A DNA stretch of 64,000 bases from Caldilineaceae bacterium (GTDB taxonomy: Bacteria > Chloroflexota > Anaerolineae > Caldilineales > Caldilineaceae). The notes under the pieces were generated by a model. The model made no database searches. It saw only the letters and a program-made list of their open reading frames with translations, and was not told where the DNA came from. Where the stretch lies: the NCBI GenBank assembly GCA_020433455.1, contig JAGRCP010000064.1, positions 7,141-71,140 of the forward strand, given 5' to 3'. A program made the translations under genes and the position numbers. Positions 44,974-55,198 of the stretch are shown here, one piece after another (position 1 is the first letter of the stretch; each line of letters begins with the position of its first letter).

Positions 44974-45051
44974 CTACACAGGCTCCTCGGGGAGGGTCTG
45001 CGAAAAACAGACCAATTCCAGAGGAAAACCTCCCGGAGGCTATACAGTTAC
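44974..45051 (+). repeat. Dispersed intergenic repeat, copy B
   Basis: Plus-strand copy of the element described at 34158-34236. It fills most of the gap between the phosphatase and P-loop genes. It has GGGAGGGTCTGCG early, TTCCAGAGG in the middle and CCTCCCGGAGGCTATACAGT late. An internal GGTCTG/CAGACC pair adds a second small hairpin. Confidence 0.8.
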
Positions 45052-45078
45052 GCACCCGCAATCCCGGATATTTCATCC

Positions 45079-45504
45079 ATGCCGAAATCACCGCCTCTCC
45101 CAATCATCAAAATAGTCGGCATCAGCGCAGGCGGCAAGTCCACCCTGGTGAAGGCGTTACGCGCCCACGGCTACGATGCGCGTCCGGTGAGCCAGGAGCA
45201 CAGCAACGTGCCGGACCTGTGGCGGCAGTTTGACAAGCCCCAGTGGCTCTTCTATTTGGACGTGAGTCTGGAGGGACAGCGCGGGCGCAGGCCGGATGTG
45301 TCGTGGAGCGCAAAGTGGCGGCAAACGGAAGAAATACGCCTGCGCCACGCCCGGTCTCATGCAGATTTAATCATCAACACGACGGCAATGGAGCCGGATG
45401 CCGTAGCCAATCTCGCGCTCCTTTTTTTGCGCGACAAGCGAGTGGGCCATGCCCAGGAGGCGCTCCCGCTGCTTGCCGCGACCGGTTCAGCCAGAAAGGA
45501 ATAA
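45079..45504 (+). CDS. Small P-loop NTPase-like protein
   Basis: A 141-residue protein. A Walker A-type loop, GISAGGKSTLV, lies near the N-terminus (about residues 13-23). The middle reads QWLFYLDVSLEGQRGRRPD and the end shows RHARSHADLIINTTAMEPD, resembling small nucleotide or metabolite kinases. No family is assigned with confidence. I chose the ATG at 45079; the frame is open to 44956, but that stretch is the dispersed repeat. The FAD oxidoreductase starts 3 nt after the stop. Confidence 0.72.
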   Translation: MPKSPPLPIIKIVGISAGGKSTLVKALRAHGYDARPVSQEHSNVPDLWRQFDKPQWLFYLDVSLEGQRGRRPDVSWSAKWRQTEEIRLRHARSHADLIINTTAMEPDAVANLALLFLRDKRVGHAQEALPLLAATGSARKE

Positions 45505-45507
45505 CTT

Positions 45508-46617
45508 ATGGATTATGTAATCGTCGGCAGTGGCATATACGGCTCGCTTGTCGCGTGGGAACTCGCGCAGGCGGGAGCCGGCGTACAGGTACTGGAAGCG
45601 GATCAAACAGCCGCCGGTGCGTCAGGCGGAATAGGTAAACGCGGCGTACGCGCCAATGGCCGCGACGTACGCGAACTACCTCTGATGCGGATGGCCTACG
45701 AACGCTGGCCATCGCTACACGAAGAACTTGGAGGCGAAACAGGATTCGTCCGCTGCGGCCACCTGCAACTCATCGAACGTGACCGGGACTATCTGGAGGT
45801 CGAGGCGCGCCTTTGGCTCCAGCGCACCCACGGCATTGAGACCGAATTGCTCCAGGCTGATCAGGTTCACGCCCAGGAGCCGGCGCTCAACCCGGATATT
45901 CAGGCGGCGCTCTTCTGCCCGCTTGACGGCGTAGCCGATCACACGGCCACGACGCTCTCCGCAGCCGAAGCCGCCCGGCAGGCCGGCGCCGACATCCGCA
46001 CCGGATTCAGCGTAGCGGAGATTCAGCAGAGCAGCGGCCGCGCAACCGGCGTGATCACGACCGATGGGGAAGAATTCAGCGCGGATCGAGGCGTTATTCT
46101 CCTCAGCAACAGCAGCGTGCCGCACCTCCTCCAGGCAAGTCTGGGGCTCTATCTCCCCGTCTGGTCGCGCTATCCCCAGGTCATCATCACCGGGGCCATA
46201 CCCGGCGTTACCTTGAATCACCTCATTGGTCACGCCCACAGGCGGCTGGCCATGAAGAACGGGCCCGACGGGTCGATTATGATTTCCGGCGGTTGGCTGG
46301 GCAAAGCAGGACCGAACGGCCGCGGCCGCCCGGTTACGGACCAGGTGGCGGGCAACTGGCAGGAAGCCGTTGCCGTGCTGCCGGGGCTGGCGGACGCTAC
46401 GATTGCCGCGGTGCAGGCGGATCGCCTGGAAAGCCAGAGCGTGGACCATATCCCTATTATCGACCACGCGCCGGGGCTTGATAATCTGTATTACGCTACC
46501 GGCTGGTCCGGCCACGGCTGGGCCATTGCGCCGGCAGTCAGTCGCCTGTTGGCCGAGTGGATTCTCTCCGGCCGTAAGCCGGAAGCGCTGGAACCGTTCC
46601 GCTTTTCCCGCTTTTAG
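45508..46617 (+). CDS. FAD-dependent oxidoreductase (DAO family)
   Basis: A 369-residue DAO-family flavoenzyme, the group of D-amino acid, glycine and sarcosine oxidases. The N-terminal Rossmann motif is VIVGSGIYGSLVAWEL, followed by an acidic strand end (VLEAD) and AAGASGGIGKRG. Near the C-terminus, LDNLYYATGWSGHGWAIAPA is the typical FAD-contact block. The substrate is unknown; secondary amines or amino acids are most likely. AAAGGAATAA lies before the ATG. Confidence 0.87.
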   Translation: MDYVIVGSGIYGSLVAWELAQAGAGVQVLEADQTAAGASGGIGKRGVRANGRDVRELPLMRMAYERWPSLHEELGGETGFVRCGHLQLIERDRDYLEVEARLWLQRTHGIETELLQADQVHAQEPALNPDIQAALFCPLDGVADHTATTLSAAEAARQAGADIRTGFSVAEIQQSSGRATGVITTDGEEFSADRGVILLSNSSVPHLLQASLGLYLPVWSRYPQVIITGAIPGVTLNHLIGHAHRRLAMKNGPDGSIMISGGWLGKAGPNGRGRPVTDQVAGNWQEAVAVLPGLADATIAAVQADRLESQSVDHIPIIDHAPGLDNLYYATGWSGHGWAIAPAVSRLLAEWILSGRKPEALEPFRFSRF

Positions 46618-46645
46618 GGCAATTCGGGAAGATACAATCCGGCAT

Positions 46646-46685
46646 AAAAAAACAGATGAGCCACTCGGGGGAGCGGCTCATCTGT
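46646..46685 (-). terminator. Terminator of the peptide/DUF5317 operon
   Basis: ACAGATGAGCC (46652-46662) pairs with GGCTCATCTGT (46675-46685) around a 12-nt loop. The run of seven A at 46646-46652 becomes a T-run only on the minus strand, so this terminates minus-strand transcription. It is the first sign that the short minus-strand genes to its right form a real operon. It may also affect the flavoenzyme transcript. Confidence 0.8.
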
Positions 46686-46808
46686 ATGATACCGTTTTGG
46701 TTGGGAAAGCCGAACGGCTATCGCCGAGGAAATTACATCTCCGCAACAATATCACACACGTTCGACAGCTTTCGGGGGAAGCCCCAACCGCAACAGGAGG
46801 CGATTACG

Positions 46809-47171
46809 TTACTCGGACCTGACATGAGCCTGCGTCACGCGTACGGGAGTCGGATGCCGGACTTGGCAATCGGCAGAGGCCTGGGCCGCATGCTTGAGCC
46901 GCTGGATCAGCAGGCGGGCGAAGTCAGCCATACTGGAGGCGTGGATGGAAGCCAAAACGCTCAATTCAAAATCCGTCAAAACGAACTGATATCCATTATA
47001 GCCTGCGGCAACAGCATCAAGGGGCGCCAGCAGCAGCTTACGACAAAAATGCCGATTGACAACCGCAGCGCTAAGCAAACGATTCAGATCGTCGCTACAG
47101 TCCAGCAAGTCAAGCGACTGATCCGGCCTTTCGGTTTCTTGAAAATGTTGCCAAATGAGAGTCTGATACAT
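46809..47171 (-). CDS. Short NHLP-leader-like protein (putative RiPP precursor)
   Basis: A 120-residue protein. Residues of about 30-95 read LLSAAVVNRHFCRKLLLAPL, then DAVAAGYNGYQFVLTDFELS and a final VLASIHASSMADFARLLIQRL. This matches the pattern of short NHLP-type (nitrile hydratase leader-like) proteins: helix, F-x-x-L-L-x-x-P, A-x-A-x-x-Y, L-T-x-x-E, then I-x-A-x-x-L-x-x-F-A. Such domains serve as RiPP leaders. The last ~28 residues are His/Arg/Gln-rich with one Cys and could be the core, but no maturation enzyme is adjacent. AAGG lies upstream of the ATG. Family call is from pattern only. Confidence 0.6.
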   Translation of the reverse strand: MYQTLIWQHFQETERPDQSLDLLDCSDDLNRLLSAAVVNRHFCRKLLLAPLDAVAAGYNGYQFVLTDFELSVLASIHASSMADFARLLIQRLKHAAQASADCQVRHPTPVRVTQAHVRSE

Positions 47172-47246
47172 ACAACGTACCTTTTTCAGAGTAATGGACA
47201 GTGCAAACGGTTACGCTCAATGGCGGACGAAAAAAAATAAACGCTG

Positions 47247-47834
47247 TCATGTCGCCTGGCTATGTGCGGCCCTATCGCCGCCGCCCGCTCGCCAGAAAAA
47301 CCAAAAAGCGCCGGCTGCAATCAGAATATCGCCCAAGCTATAGGCCACGCCCATAGGAAACCAGTTGGGGAGAACAAAGCGATCTGAAAGAAAAGCCAAT
47401 CTGGTCGCGTCCTCGGGCAATAAGATATCCTTGGTGCCGCCAAGACGTTTGCCGTAATGCGCCTGATCAATTGTCACATCAGACGCAAGCCGCAGAACCG
47501 TCTCCGGGCTAATCGGCATCAGGCCGCCATTGGCCAAAATAACGATAAGATTGAGCAAGAGCCCGGCGCCCAAACAGAGCAAGGCCAAATCGGTACGGTT
47601 CAACCATACAAAGAGCAACAGCAGCAGCAGCGAAGCAACCAGCGTAACGGCTGCAATTTCGTAACCGACGGTTCGCCTGAAACGCGGGACAAAAAAGACC
47701 AGCAATTGGGGCAATACCGCTAATAAAACCAGCCACTCAGCGTGCAAATGACCCACCGTAAATCGGTTATGCCCAATGCGAGCGCGTAATACTCCTGCGA
47801 TCAGACCAAAAAAGACAGCGAGCGAAAGGATCAC
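47247..47834 (-). CDS. DUF5317 family membrane protein
   Basis: A 195-residue protein with four to five hydrophobic helices (LSLAVFFGLIAGVLRA, LVLLAVLPQLLVFFVP, VTLVASLLLLLLFVWL, LALLCLGAGLLLNLIVIL, and a last one near residue 170). The block ANGGLMPISPETVLRLA is the hallmark of DUF5317. Function unknown. The likely GTG start at 47834 lies 21 nt after the stop codon of a 46-residue peptide gene and has no ribosome site, so translation is probably coupled to that peptide. The co-occurrence suggests export, processing or sensing of the peptide. Confidence 0.78.
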   Translation of the reverse strand: MILSLAVFFGLIAGVLRARIGHNRFTVGHLHAEWLVLLAVLPQLLVFFVPRFRRTVGYEIAAVTLVASLLLLLLFVWLNRTDLALLCLGAGLLLNLIVILANGGLMPISPETVLRLASDVTIDQAHYGKRLGGTKDILLPEDATRLAFLSDRFVLPNWFPMGVAYSLGDILIAAGAFWFFWRAGGGDRAAHSQAT

Positions 47835-47855
47835 CAGAACGCAACAATAACAGCC

Positions 47856-47996
47856 TTAGAAGCCCGTATTTTCGCCGGGGGCGCCTGCGCCGATGGCCAA
47901 CAGGAAGAGCGTGCCGATGGCCAGCGCAATGCGTACGTGATTGCGATCAATGCGGCCGGCTTTTACGCTTGCAGAGAAGAGCTTAGCTTTCATCAT
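47856..47996 (-). CDS. 46-residue hydrophobic peptide, copy 1
   Basis: A short gene with a strong ribosome site (GGAGGA, with a double ATG). The peptide begins MMKAKLFSASVKAGRIDRNH, a basic, possibly amphipathic stretch, continues as VRIALAIGTLFLLAIGAG, one membrane helix, and ends APGENTGF. Protein sequence is identical to copy 2 (48076-48216). The four base differences are all synonymous, which shows selection at the protein level or gene conversion. No known family recognised. It could be a signalling peptide, a RiPP precursor or a small membrane protein. Confidence 0.85.
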   Translation of the reverse strand: MMKAKLFSASVKAGRIDRNHVRIALAIGTLFLLAIGAGAPGENTGF

Positions 47997-48008
47997 TTCC
48001 TCCAAAAG

Positions 48009-48038
48009 GGATAAAAGGCGTTCGTAGTCAGACGAACG
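48009..48038 (-). terminator. Weak terminator or attenuator between the twin peptide genes
   Basis: CGTTCGT (48019-48025) pairs with ACGAACG (48032-48038) around a 6-nt loop; on the minus strand it is followed by CCTTTTATCCCTTTT. It may lower transcription of copy 1 and the downstream genes relative to copy 2. Confidence 0.45.
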
Positions 48039-48075
48039 GGATGATGGACAAGAGCAGCGGACAGAAAATAAAATC

Positions 48076-48216
48076 TTAGAAACCCGTATTTTCGCCGGGG
48101 GCGCCTGCGCCGATGGCTAACAGGAAGAGCGTGCCGATGGCCAGTGCAATGCGCACGTGATTGCGATCAATGCGGCCGGCTTTTACGCTTGCAGAGAAGA
48201 GCTTAGCTTTCATCAT
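48076..48216 (-). CDS. 46-residue hydrophobic peptide, copy 2
   Basis: The first gene of the proposed operon. It encodes exactly the same 46 residues as copy 1. The ribosome site is GGGAGGA just before a double ATG. The frame is open upstream to 48300, but the ribosome site and the shared boundary with copy 1 mark the real start at 48216. The duplicated segment is 149 nt with four differences. Confidence 0.85.
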   Translation of the reverse strand: MMKAKLFSASVKAGRIDRNHVRIALAIGTLFLLAIGAGAPGENTGF

Positions 48217-48292
48217 TTCCTCCCGGAGATAATTATCACCATTGCCCTGTTCGGTACGATATCGGGCAACATTGCGTACAAAATTCAATGAT

Positions 48293-48330
48293 GTTATCAT
48301 CGCACGGCATTGGCATCAGAGGAGGCATCA
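48293..48330 (-). promoter_or_regulatory. Candidate BTAD-regulator operator and -10 box
   Basis: On the minus strand TGATGCC occurs at 48324-48330 and again at 48312-48318, a 12-bp period, followed 13 nt later by GATAAC (48293-48298), a possible -10 box. SARP-type BTAD regulators bind tandem heptamers just upstream of the -10. The start of copy 2 lies about 75 nt downstream. The period is near one helical turn but not the classical 11 or 22 bp, so this is tentative. Confidence 0.4.
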
Positions 48331-48401
48331 AAACAGGCTCATGGCGTATTTCTCTCTGGATGAGGGCGGCTTTGAAGGCCAAATCTAAATCCGTCCAATC
48401 C

Positions 48402-48431
48402 AAAAGGCCCGGTCGCTTGACCGGGCCTTTT
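48402..48431. terminator. Terminator after the BTAD regulator gene
   Basis: A perfect 13-bp stem (48402-48414 with 48419-48431) with a 4-nt loop; the stem ends in TTTT on either strand. It lies 72 nt after the regulator stop codon and separates its transcript from the peptide genes. The region 48217-48502 holds this and the operator candidate and no gene. Confidence 0.8.
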
Positions 48432-48502
48432 GCGTACAAATTATGACATAACGCCATAACGCCGTTACAATTTTTACAGAGTTGCAATTTCTTACGGGCG
48501 TC

Positions 48503-51500
48503 TCACATCATCAGCTGTTCGTACAGATCTTCCGTTTGCAATGAGGGAGGCGCGGCAACCTCTGCATACAAGGCGTTATGGCATGCGTCATACTGACGCA
48601 CGATTGCGGCCCGGTCGCCCATGGCATGGTATGCGCGCATGGAAAGTCGGTAGGCTTCCTCCCAGCAGGCGTCTACCCCGATCATGCGATCGCAGGTAGC
48701 CAGGACATCGGCATGCTGCTCCAAGGTTAAATAGAGCAGAGCCAATTCCATGAGGGCGTCCCGATAGCGCCGGTCCAGATGCCGACGCTCAACTTGCGCC
48801 CAATCATCGTCGATCTCCGGACAAAATTCGCCCTGATAATTCTCAATTGCGTGGCCAAGCGCACGACTCTTACGCAGGAGATCAGTCGTTGCCGCGGCGC
48901 GCGCCAGCGCGGTCTGAAAATCCTCCACGTCTGACGCATAATCCAAATCCTGATTAAAGCGATACAAATCGTCTTCGTAGATAACAATGTCGCCGCCGAT
49001 GGCTTTACGCAGGCGATAGATAGAATTTTTAAAGCGGCTTTTTACCTGATCAGGCGAGGCTTTGGGCCAAAAAATGAGGCCGATCTCCTCACGGGTCAAT
49101 CCTTCAGGGTGGGCAATGAGACAGTAGAGCAAGTCGCGGGAGACAAGGGTCTGCCAATCGCTGTTCGTCACGTAGCGACCGTGTAATATAACCTCGGTGC
49201 GGCCCAGAGCGCGGACTTCCAGCGCCGGCTTGACGGCCAGCAAATCCCCAAGTCCATCCGGAGCCTGATGGCGCAATGCGCGTCGCATGACCCGGGTCTG
49301 GCGCATAGCCTCGTCCGTCCGGACGATAAACTCGCCCCGCGGTTGACGATAGCGGTCAGCCACTTCAATTTCAGCGAGCCACTTAAGCATGGGCTGAGCC
49401 GCGGCATAGACGGAGTAGTTGTACTCCATGTGGGGCAACGCATCCAACACCGTCTGGAAATGCGTACAGGCGTTATCCGCATCGCCGGCAGCGGAGTAGG
49501 CAGCGGCGAGCAGGAGGCTGGTGGTAATGTCTTCCGACAGATGCTGCGTGGAGGAAAAATAATCGCGGGCCCGCAGCAGCACCTCAACCGCCATGGCCGG
49601 CTGATTGTGCAGCAGATGAATCCGCCCCACAGCCTGCTGATAGAGCGCTTTATCGTAAAGCGACGCGCCCTCCACAATCCGCTTGCTGACCTGATCCAAG
49701 TGGTAGAAAGTCTGCTCAGCTTCGCCGCCCAGCGCCCCAATCTGCGCCAACTGCAAGTTCGCATAAATCTCCAGCGAACCGTAGGTTGTCTCCCGGGCCA
49801 GCCTGACGCTGCGCAGACAGAGGGTTTGCGCCGCGGAGGGGAATCCCAGGTCCATCAATACGTCACCCAACGTCGCGCAGATGGTCGTTTCGGTGCGACG
49901 ATGCGCGCTGCGCTCGGCGCCGCTCAACGCCTCCATGAGCGTTTCTACGGCCAGAATCAGTTGGCCCCGCTTGTGATAGACCAAACCCAGATTATTCAAC
50001 ACCAGGCTCAGTTGCTGAACATGGCCCGAGCGGCGCAGGCTGTCAGCGGCAATCTCAAATGTCTCCAGGGCATTGGTCAAATCGCCCAGGGAGAGATGAA
50101 TCAACGCCATGTCGATTTGGGCTTTGGCGACATCCACCAGAGAGCCGGCGATTTTGAACAGCTCAAGGGCCTTGTCAATCACCTCGAGCGCCTGGGGCAA
50201 ATCGCCCAGGCGCTGATGACAAATGGCAATGGTCTTGTAACAATTGGCGCTGATCTCGGCCAGGTCTTGTTCCGGCCCGGCATAGTCAGGCGCAGACTCC
50301 AACGCAGCGGTCGCGGCGGCAAGCGCGGCATCATAATCGCCCAGATAGCGCAGCACGACGGCCCTCCAGGCGAGAGAGCGGAAATACCACAGATTCTCGC
50401 CCGGCTCCAGACGCGAGATCGCATCATCCAGGAGCCTGTGCCCCTCTACCACCTGGCCCAGAATCACAAACGCTGCGGCCCGAATCGAAATGATTTCAGG
50501 GTAGGTCGTCAAAAAAGAAGCGGGAAGAGAAGCAGTCCACTTGTCCACAAGCTGCGCGCGGCCCGCGGCAATCAGCGCCTGGCCGCACTGGGAAATAAGG
50601 CGGGCGACGGCTTCCTGATCCTGAAGGCGCTGATAGAGATGATAGGCTCTTTCGTACTCGCCACGTTCCTGCAGCCAATGGGCATGGGATTGCAGAATAA
50701 GGGCTTCTTCATCAGGCGACTCCAGGCTGAGGCGATAGAGGAGAAACTCCTGAAAGAGCCGATGAAAGCGCAGCCAGGTTCCGTCATCGCCCACGGCCGT
50801 CACGAAGAGCCCCTTTTGCAAAACCTCATCGACCAGCATTTGCCAGCTCAGTCCGTCCGGCAGCCATTCTTCAGGGAAAATATCGGCGCAAAGGGCCGCA
50901 TCGAACTCTTCCAGTGCGGCCGTACGCATGAGGAAGGCGCGCAAAACAGGAGATTGCCGCTCCAGCACCTGCTGCGCCAGATAGTCATAAAGGGCCACGC
51001 CCGTTGAGCGCGCCATGCGGTTCACGCGGTGTTGGGCGGCAGTCGAGTGGCCGGAGAGCAGAATCCCCGTGATCCAGCCTTCAGTCGCTTCCGCCAGCGC
51101 ATTCGCTTCCTGGTCGGACATCTCCTCGCTGAAGCGGATGCGGGCCAATTCCTGCACTTCCCGAGGGGTAAAGGCCAACATGGCGTCATCGATACCCACA
51201 ACCTGGGAATGGGCAACCAACAGGGCGAGGTTCGGCAACGTCAGAAGCTTGCGCGAGGCCAGCACAACCTGACAATTTGCCGCTACATGCTGGACAAACC
51301 GGCTTACGAAATAGCCGATTTCCGTCACCCCATCGACCAGATGATAGTCATCAATAATCAGCGAAAAGGGATCCTGCACGGTATCGTAAAGCTCGTTTAC
51401 GACGATGGCGACAAGCTGATCCAGGGTAATATTTTTTTCTGCAAACGATTGGAGCGCGGCCTCGGATTCCAAACCGAAGCGGGGAAAGCGATGCCGGATG

Positions 51501-51754
51501 GCGGCAATCCAGTGCGCGAGAAAACGCGGAGGATCCTCATCTAAAACGTCAACGGTATACCAACAGATGGCGCGCGTATCCTCGGCTTCCGTCCAATCCA
51601 GCAGCATAGAAGTTTTGCCGTAGCCGGCCGGAGCCACAACCAAAGCAAGGCGAGTATCCGCCATTGACGCCATATGCTTCGACAACCGCTTGCGCCTCAG
51701 AAGTGTTTCAGGGCGTCTGGGGGCTATAATTTTAGTTTTTGTAATCAATAGCAT
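48503..51754 (-). CDS. MalT-like STAND ATPase with TPRs and C-terminal BTAD domain
   Basis: A 1083-residue transcription regulator. Residues 1-300 form a MalT-like STAND ATPase with Walker A APAGYGKTS (41-49) and Walker B SLIIDDYHLVD (about 135-145). Residues of about 380-800 are TPR-like helical repeats. Residues of about 840-935 form an OmpR/SARP-type winged helix (LTREEIGLIFWPKASPDQVK, FKNSIYRLRKAIGG), followed by the BTAD domain to the C-terminus. STAND regulators switch on when an inducer binds the TPR part and ATP is bound. The twin peptides downstream are a candidate inducer or target. It has its own promoter and terminator. Confidence 0.92.
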   Translation of the reverse strand: MLLITKTKIIAPRRPETLLRRKRLSKHMASMADTRLALVVAPAGYGKTSMLLDWTEAEDTRAICWYTVDVLDEDPPRFLAHWIAAIRHRFPRFGLESEAALQSFAEKNITLDQLVAIVVNELYDTVQDPFSLIIDDYHLVDGVTEIGYFVSRFVQHVAANCQVVLASRKLLTLPNLALLVAHSQVVGIDDAMLAFTPREVQELARIRFSEEMSDQEANALAEATEGWITGILLSGHSTAAQHRVNRMARSTGVALYDYLAQQVLERQSPVLRAFLMRTAALEEFDAALCADIFPEEWLPDGLSWQMLVDEVLQKGLFVTAVGDDGTWLRFHRLFQEFLLYRLSLESPDEEALILQSHAHWLQERGEYERAYHLYQRLQDQEAVARLISQCGQALIAAGRAQLVDKWTASLPASFLTTYPEIISIRAAAFVILGQVVEGHRLLDDAISRLEPGENLWYFRSLAWRAVVLRYLGDYDAALAAATAALESAPDYAGPEQDLAEISANCYKTIAICHQRLGDLPQALEVIDKALELFKIAGSLVDVAKAQIDMALIHLSLGDLTNALETFEIAADSLRRSGHVQQLSLVLNNLGLVYHKRGQLILAVETLMEALSGAERSAHRRTETTICATLGDVLMDLGFPSAAQTLCLRSVRLARETTYGSLEIYANLQLAQIGALGGEAEQTFYHLDQVSKRIVEGASLYDKALYQQAVGRIHLLHNQPAMAVEVLLRARDYFSSTQHLSEDITTSLLLAAAYSAAGDADNACTHFQTVLDALPHMEYNYSVYAAAQPMLKWLAEIEVADRYRQPRGEFIVRTDEAMRQTRVMRRALRHQAPDGLGDLLAVKPALEVRALGRTEVILHGRYVTNSDWQTLVSRDLLYCLIAHPEGLTREEIGLIFWPKASPDQVKSRFKNSIYRLRKAIGGDIVIYEDDLYRFNQDLDYASDVEDFQTALARAAATTDLLRKSRALGHAIENYQGEFCPEIDDDWAQVERRHLDRRYRDALMELALLYLTLEQHADVLATCDRMIGVDACWEEAYRLSMRAYHAMGDRAAIVRQYDACHNALYAEVAAPPSLQTEDLYEQLMM

Positions 51755-51812
51755 TGTGCTGGTATTGCTTAGCCCGCGTCACGCGCGGTAATATAACGTG
51801 ACATATGGCTGC

Positions 51813-51841
51813 ATCATAGCATATCTTCAACAAGATGTCAC
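51813..51841 (-). promoter_or_regulatory. Promoter of the BTAD regulator gene
   Basis: On the minus strand GTGACA (51836-51841), a 17-nt spacer and TATGAT (51813-51818), with TGC giving an extended -10. Ten of 12 bases match consensus. A GTCACG/CGTGAC inverted pair lies at 51779-51801, downstream of the start site, and could bind a repressor. Confidence 0.65.
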
Positions 51842-51973
51842 GCATATCTAACAAAAATTCCCCCTGATTTTTCCGTCAAGCCGCCTCCGTATATTCCCTT
51901 CCGCTTCCATATTGCATTATTCCGCCTAAGCGACGAGCGCGTCCGCCCCGCCGAATAATTTGACGTATCTATC

Positions 51974-52061
51974 TTATAAGGCCCCTCCGGGAAGGTGTGC
52001 GGAAAATGCGCGAAAAAACGCGCCGGCTCCGGAGAGGGATCCCGGAGGCTGTACAGCAACG
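51974..52061 (+). repeat. Dispersed intergenic repeat, copy C
   Basis: The most divergent copy of the element at 34158 and 44974. It keeps CTCCGGGAAGGTGTGCGG early and CCCGGAGGCTGTACAGCAAC late, and has internal GCGCG/CGCGC pairing. It ends 2 nt before the -35 box of the valS promoter. The 729-nt gap 51755-52483 is otherwise filled by promoters and the T-box. Confidence 0.7.
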
Positions 52062-52063
52062 AT

Positions 52064-52093
52064 TTGACAAATTCATAGGCAGGAACCTATACT
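52064..52093 (+). promoter_or_regulatory. Promoter of the valS T-box transcript
   Basis: Perfect TTGACA (52064-52069), an 18-nt spacer and TATACT (52088-52093). Transcription would begin about 52100, just ahead of the T-box leader. Confidence 0.8.
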
Positions 52094-52099
52094 CGTCAC

Positions 52100-52389
52100 C
52101 GACGATTAGACGATAAACAACGATGCACCGGAAGAGTATCCCCACGCGGTCGCCAGAGAATCGAGGCCACAGGCTGTAAGCCTCGACCGACAGAGCGGCG
52201 GAGAAAGTCACCGGGAAGGTTGACGGATTGAACGGCATTGCCTGCGTAGGTCCGTCCGGGTCGGCCCGTTACAGCTTTGAGTGGGCTGATTGGGCCGCAT
52301 GCAAAACGCGACGGAGGAGTCGCCCCAATCAACCAAACAAGGTGGCACCGCGAAGACCGCTTCGTCCTTGTGACGAAGCGGTCTTTTTT
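52100..52389 (+). promoter_or_regulatory. T-box riboswitch leader of valS, probable specifier GUC
   Basis: A T-box leader senses uncharged tRNA and allows readthrough when the amino acid is scarce. The conserved T-box sequence AAGGTGGCACCGCG lies at 52339-52352. The terminator (52353-52366 with 52372-52385, then six T) follows directly. The Stem I base can be seen as CCGG at 52128-52131 followed by GAAGAGTA, closing with ACCGG at 52210-52214. The triplet just before, GTC at 52207-52209, is a valine codon and fits the downstream gene. The specifier call is from manual folding. Confidence 0.9.
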
Positions 52390-52483
52390 GCGCCCAATAC
52401 CCTTGAGAAAATCATGCCAATATGTTTTGCTCCGACCTGTTATTATTACAGTCTTTATTTTACAAAATGAGGGAAATGAAAAT

Positions 52484-55198
<2,715 letters not shown>

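Follow-up and report, generated by a model that had tools for sequence, protein, structure and literature searches.

A conserved regulator, peptide and DUF5317 cassette in Chloroflexota: a candidate peptide-signalling system

A minus-strand gene cluster was analysed in a window of 64,000 nucleotides (nt) from a Caldilineaceae bacterium (assembly GCA_020433455.1, contig JAGRCP010000064.1; positions below are those of the window). A large regulator, here called REG, is followed by an operon of two genes for the same small peptide, a DUF5317 membrane protein and a small Os1348/NHLP-like protein, and the whole is considered here as a candidate peptide-signalling cassette. All parts named by a first-pass annotation, made from the sequence alone, were found on the minus strand at the places it had given. 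To these are now added a direct-repeat promoter (48332-48296) with further targets of its own and, in relatives, an HD-GYP output gene. The features are as follows.

51813..51841, minus strand: sigma-70-like promoter before the regulator gene (consensus match only)
48503..51754, minus strand: regulator (REG), 1083 amino acids (aa), MalT-like STAND ATPase, TPRs and C-terminal BTAD; coordinates include the stop codon
48402..48432 (about), minus strand: terminator-like hairpin after the regulator gene, seen in the sequence, with 4 T
48312..48332, minus strand: direct repeat TTTGATGCC-TCCT-CTGATGCC, 12-bp period, putative REG operator, conserved in relatives
48296..48301, minus strand: GATGAT, putative -10 box, 18 nt past the start of the last repeat
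48076..48216, minus strand: peptide gene copy 1, 46 aa (MMKAKLFSASVKAGRIDRNHVRIALAIGTLFLLAIGAGAPGENTGF)
48019..48038, minus strand: weak hairpin between the peptide copies, possible attenuator
47856..47996, minus strand: peptide gene copy 2, same protein as copy 1
47247..47834, minus strand: DUF5317 membrane protein, 195 aa, GTG start, about five transmembrane helices (PF17248, E 8e-33)
46809..47171, minus strand: Os1348/NHLP-like small protein, 120 aa (NF038399, E 1.7e-5; PF14407, E 0.0016)
46652..46685, minus strand: intrinsic terminator closing the operon, 15-pair stem then T-run

The twin genes do encode an identical 46-residue peptide, as had been noted, and differ at four nucleotides, all of them synonymous third positions; the DUF5317 gene starts 21 nt past the stop of the second copy. 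The claim that the T-run of the closing terminator (46685-46652) serves the minus strand only also holds. The promoter and terminator that had been assigned to the regulator itself are less certain: the former is a match to consensus, and the hairpin of the latter ends in four T, with a longer T-run on the hairpin at the same position in relatives. Hairpin sites such as that between the peptide genes are no more numerous in the region than in shuffled sequence, and an Rfam scan of 45000-54000 gave no family at the gathering threshold, hence no RNA element was recognised there.

A search of 400 Chloroflexota genomes yielded weak peptide matches directly upstream of DUF5317 matches in genomes of the same class, and about 24 loci of the sampled genomes keep REG, peptide, DUF5317 and NHLP-like genes in the same order and on the same strand. 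Comparison was extended to 80 loci from named genomes, partly overlapping the sampled set, 61 of which have at least 4 kb of upstream sequence. Of these 61, 58 carry REG on the upstream side of the peptide gene; the peptide was identified in 57 by an automatic rule and in 60 after inspection by eye (L144, L160 and L202 were added, the peptides of the last two bearing variants of the GAP motif). A relative of the NHLP-like protein occupies the same place in 65 of the 80 loci. The three loci lacking a linked REG belong to Anaerolinea, and Anaerolinea genomes G216 and G685 (A. thermolimosa) have an unlinked orthologue that shares 43-44% identity with the Bellilinea-type REG.

For co-occurrence, a profile built from 45 peptides and DUF5317 were both searched in the same 199 genomes of the class. 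DUF5317 was present in all 45 genomes with a peptide match at E<=1e-5, but in just 15 of the remaining 154 (Fisher p 5e-32, uncorrected for kinship; 22 families). Several genomes carry DUF5317 on another contig (e.g. G445, G448, G449, G465, G491, G498 and G534) and still have REG directly upstream of the peptide; REG and the peptide are therefore the tightest pair, with DUF5317 kept even when unlinked. Judged by this conservation, the arrangement is far beyond chance. The four genes form a conserved unit across Chloroflexota, and the absence of a conserved neighbourhood, which the first-pass annotation had named as grounds for abandoning its reading, is thus not what was found. Both that unit and the pairing of peptide with DUF5317 stand; the RiPP component of that reading (ribosomally synthesised and post-translationally modified peptide) does not, as set out below.

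The stretch separating the regulator gene from the peptide gene contains a direct repeat of the form TTTGAWGCC-nnn-TTTGAWGCC. The best repeat pair was scored in 80 distinct upstream regions over 14 positions and 11 periods, with 400 shuffles for comparison. A pair of at least 11/14 at period 12 was obtained in 54 of the 80 regions, and 28 of the 400 shuffles reached that score at one or another period; among the 64 regions reaching 11/14, the period was 12 in 54 and 11 in four. In 27 of the 33 relatives whose repeat is clear, the -10-like hexamer TAnnnT starts exactly 18 nt downstream of the point where the last repeat begins. An operon switch made up of these repeats and a -10 box at fixed distance is well supported. 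The repeat at 48312..48332 is the sole copy in the window, and the near-exact operator occurs five times in 298 genomes of the class, each time at this operon (5/5). Short upstream open reading frames (MKPVLKPGGxY and MPPLMPxPCDDN) were considered as a second peptide and rejected, being the translated direct repeat.

REG is probably the protein that binds these repeats, to judge from its position and domain type. It matches BTAD at residues 942-1081 (Pfam, E 3.6e-13) and several TPR models (TPR_12, E 8.5e-21), and the NCBIfam MalT model covers residues 6-616 with E 2.6e-71, at a score far below the MalT cut-off. The 12-bp repeat was absent from the 300 nt upstream of the regulator gene.

The peptide belongs to a family for which there is no Pfam or NCBIfam model, and a search of this genome found it only at the two twin sites. 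Members possess a basic N terminus, a single hydrophobic stretch, GAP and a short glycine-rich tail (consensus ...LxLFVLGAGAPxxxGG), the tail of the Bellilinea peptide being, for example, GAPEAGGGIINSIINFPGW. The ratio of nonsynonymous to synonymous differences (pN/pS) has a median of 0.21 over 31 peptide pairs, and a sequence resembling a ribosome-binding site lies within 16 nt of 72 of 76 peptide genes, against 24% of shuffles. These values, with the synonymous differences between the twins, show the peptide to be a real coding gene. Tandem arrays of two to four near-identical peptide genes occur in several genomes. Those with three or four genes are L260 (G436:C33), L288/L289 (G536) and L290 (G592), the contig of G436 ending within the array. 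At L128/L096 (G387:C158) each of two peptide genes lies behind a terminator-like hairpin and its own direct-repeat promoter, so that the copies are separately controllable. In genome G498 an open reading frame of 275 aa directly downstream of REG (L273:4218-5042, minus strand) starts with the N terminus of the peptide (MKTLFAKLADPRYA...) and continues as a different protein, as if the N-terminal part of the peptide served as a membrane or export signal.

The DUF5317 protein, present once in this genome, matches PF17248 with 114 bits against a curated cut-off of 25. AlphaFold2 modelling from 46 sequences gave a confident helical bundle (mean predicted local distance difference test score, pLDDT, 92.2; predicted template-modelling score, pTM, 0.87), and seven residues are invariant (N79, N95, G104, M106, P107, D151 and D169). 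Positive charge is found on loops 1 and 3 and at the C terminus, negative charge on the large loop 102-166; the peptide carries a mean net charge of +2.4 before its hydrophobic stretch and -0.5 after GAP. From these charges the positive-inside rule predicts an N-in/C-out peptide whose tail lies outside, as does the conserved loop of DUF5317. A shared outer side would suit maturation of the tail by DUF5317 or with its help. The invariant D151 and D169 prompted a comparison with signal peptidase II (Peptidase_A8); a relationship was not established and is a weak lead only, LspA not being among the Foldseek matches of the DUF5317 model. DUF5317 is also found in Thermotoga and Thermus, and no relative was found in a plasmid collection searched with the question of mobile origin in mind. 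In another Chloroflexota family, DUF5317 and a major facilitator superfamily transporter share one open frame of 771 aa (L081:4277-6589, minus strand), with no peptide there.

Among 73 loci of relatives that extend far enough, at least 49 have a gene for a PAS/GAF HD-GYP protein next on the same strand, as the last gene of the operon. The HDxGK and HHExxxGxGYP motifs are intact in all seven HD-GYP proteins checked, and HD_5 matches reach E values down to 3e-41. A histidine kinase takes this position in some Caldilineaceae. The window has neither there, the next gene being an oppositely oriented FAD oxidoreductase.

Signalling genes at this position could also belong to a membrane sensor complex that does not signal between cells. 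The peptide would then be a small single-pass subunit that forms an envelope sensor together with DUF5317, this sensor would signal in the cytosol to the NHLP-like protein as adaptor and to the HD-GYP protein or kinase, and REG would do no more than switch the operon in response to a metabolite bound by its TPR/STAND part, in the manner of MalT. The genes for peptide and DUF5317 are often 1-20 nt apart and co-occur, cytosolic signalling genes come next in relatives, REG resembles the metabolite sensor MalT, and the tail varies little within families, all of which would suit such a complex. On the other hand, tandem arrays of two to four peptide genes imply peptide in excess of DUF5317, and in split operons REG, not DUF5317, is the neighbour that the peptide keeps. 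The peptide-DUF5317 sensor is the main rival of peptide signalling, though we judge it unlikely.

The NHLP-leader-like label given to the last gene in the window reflects a real but weak similarity: the protein scores 24.8 bits against NF038399 (Os1348; cut-off 40) and 19.1 against PF14407 (Frankia_peptide; cut-off 48), both below the curated values. Its structure model is poor outside the core, and a fold search with it gave no PDB match. The label had led to the suggestion of a RiPP cluster, in which this protein would be a leader-core precursor and the cassette would yield a modified peptide. The two weak matches speak for that suggestion; their scores below cut-off speak against it, as do orthologues without a core (L084-L086, L089 and L091-L096 stop within about 10 residues of the domain) and the fact that no family of RiPP-modifying enzymes recurs in the neighbourhood across the 80 loci. 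Since many orthologues end at the domain, the NHLP-like protein is not a leader-core RiPP precursor, and the RiPP explanation is largely refuted, with scarcely any probability left to it. That the protein acts as an adaptor is a guess.

Extra copies of the operator are rare and occur in some cassette-bearing genomes, and TAnnnT stands at +18 in all six that were examined. They precede secreted RHS proteins, a histidine kinase, a LuxR-type protein, a response regulator and a 223-aa protein of unknown type. The RHS targets (L121:3-5546, minus strand; L122:6277-12000, plus strand) are giant secreted DUF11/SpvB/RHS-repeat orthologues from two genera, 52.6% identical over about 1,570 aa. Such targets might suggest a bacteriocin or competition module, with the peptide and/or the Os1348-like protein as antimicrobial, DUF5317 providing immunity or export, and REG activating, in the manner of a SARP, a set of antagonism genes with the RHS proteins among them. 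SARP regulators commonly control antibiotics (PMC10972967), and Os1348 of Pseudomonas is antibiotic-related (PMC7726476); operator copies before large secreted RHS-repeat proteins in two genera point the same way. However, neither modifying enzymes nor ABC exporters recur in the neighbourhood, the peptide and the NHLP domain are under purifying selection and kept across many families rather than diversifying, and a final HD-GYP or kinase gene suits signalling better. An antagonism module is improbable.

In the peptide-signalling reading, REG would bind at least two TTTGAWGCC repeats of 12-bp period and recruit RNA polymerase to the -10 box 18 nt on, activating an operon of peptide (one to four copies), DUF5317 and NHLP-like protein, extended in relatives by an HD-GYP protein or histidine kinase. 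Once inserted, the peptide would keep its basic N terminus on the cytosolic side of the membrane and expose its short tail (GAPxxxGG...) on the outside, where DUF5317, with its conserved loop predicted on the same side, may cleave, export or otherwise handle the tail. Returning as a signal, the matured peptide would be sensed by the TPRs of REG in a positive feedback loop; the link from the switch to cyclic di-GMP (c-di-GMP) would be made by the HD-GYP protein, and other operator-bearing genes, namely the giant secreted RHS proteins and signalling proteins, would be further outputs. Computation supports the conserved cassette, the coding peptide, the layout of operator and -10 box, the extra targets and the co-occurrence; peptide secretion, DUF5317 processing, TPR sensing and the c-di-GMP output we infer from these sequences. 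For the scheme as a whole, a REG switch with a DUF5317-matured tail, TPR sensing and c-di-GMP output, we put the chances at about even.

Several observations weigh against this scheme. More distant members, e.g. L064, L095, L201 and L205-L207, show no clear repeat, and the period is 12 bp against 11 bp in classical SARP operators. Fifteen genomes have DUF5317 without a strong peptide match. The tail is alike within a family (GAPxDGGGxxR) and less varied than strain-specific pheromones would be. A proline after an AxA-like site disfavours signal peptidase I, and the proline at this place in the peptide therefore calls for a different protease. For DUF5317, a fold search of the model gave no clear PDB match, hhalign assigned a probability of 9% to similarity with signal peptidase II (D169 being aligned with the FNxAD aspartate), and no protease or transporter homology was recognised by either method. 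The cassette also comes without an oligopeptide importer.

Sediments, the subsurface, hot springs and wastewater harbour Anaerolineae and related bacteria in abundance, yet a described peptide-signalling system was not found for them in the literature searched. The search covered few subscription journals, so that absence in it is not proof: it returned no paper that names DUF5317 and, for Chloroflexota peptide signalling or BTAD regulators, no description of this make-up, in agreement with the first-pass annotation, to which no described system of this kind was known. The cassette offers a testable role for DUF5317, a peptide family and a precise operator with a small regulon. Direct testing is possible, as two cultured strains, Bellilinea caldifistulae GOMI-1 and Anaerolinea thermolimosa IMO-1, carry it. 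Elsewhere in the window, AGGTGGCACCGCG at 52340-52352 (plus strand), upstream of the valyl-tRNA synthetase gene, resembles a T-box antiterminator core; no Rfam family reached its gathering score there.

Comparison with known systems shows partial likeness to several. RRNPP quorum-sensing systems are recognised by a propeptide of 10-100 aa, secreted and matured to a short peptide, and an adjacent gene for a receptor of 250-500 aa with TPRs, the propeptide being basic at its N terminus, hydrophobic in the middle and furnished with a short signal at its C terminus (PMC10075063). The cassette shares with those of Firmicutes (Rap, Rgg-SHP, NprR, PlcR-PapR and PrgX) this propeptide layout, at 31-54 aa, the adjacent TPR regulator and the apparent control of the peptide gene by that regulator. 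The architecture and charge of the peptide would suit a secreted and matured propeptide, and its tandem copies also agree with RRNPP-like signalling. It differs in the size of REG (1083 aa, relatives about 1060-1100, against 250-500), which carries a STAND ATPase and a C-terminal BTAD, and in its occurrence in Chloroflexota with conserved DUF5317, NHLP-like and HD-GYP partners.

In SARP-LAL operators a weak promoter carries two or three direct repeats, each made up of a heptamer and 4 further nt (PMC5930380). Like PimR and AfsR, the SARP and SARP-LAL regulators of Streptomyces, REG couples DNA binding of the BTAD type to an ATPase/TPR sensor and has a putative operator of direct repeats. Here, however, TTTGAWGCC units recur with a 12-bp period instead of heptamers with an 11-bp period, the target is a membrane-peptide operon, and BTAD is C-terminal (942-1081) in place of an N-terminal winged helix plus BTAD. 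AfsR reportedly activates an adjacent small gene, afsS. Because the size and domain order of the regulator lie outside the definitions of RRNPP and SARP, the cassette is assigned to neither. MalT shares the STAND ATPase and TPR sensor with REG but has a LuxR helix-turn-helix where REG has BTAD, and REG scores far below the cut-off of its model. Os1348 of Pseudomonas sp. Os17, to which the NHLP-like protein has a weak domain match, is encoded near GNAT, HEXXH and SagB-type genes (PMC7726476). These genes do not recur at cassette loci.

In AgrB/AgrD and ComX/ComQ, as in the cassette, a membrane protein is encoded beside a small peptide precursor. The cassette peptide differs in having no conserved cysteine or tryptophan modification site, DUF5317 has no Pfam similarity to AgrB or ComQ, and a dedicated receptor kinase is not required in the cassette. 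Set against these systems, the cassette may represent the first peptide quorum-sensing family of Chloroflexota, unrelated to RRNPP and Agr, in which DUF5317, a membrane protease or exporter of a new kind, would mature a membrane-anchored pro-pheromone, STAND/TPR-BTAD regulators would read it, and c-di-GMP and secreted RHS proteins would be coupled to the system; we offer this wider claim tentatively and lean somewhat against it.

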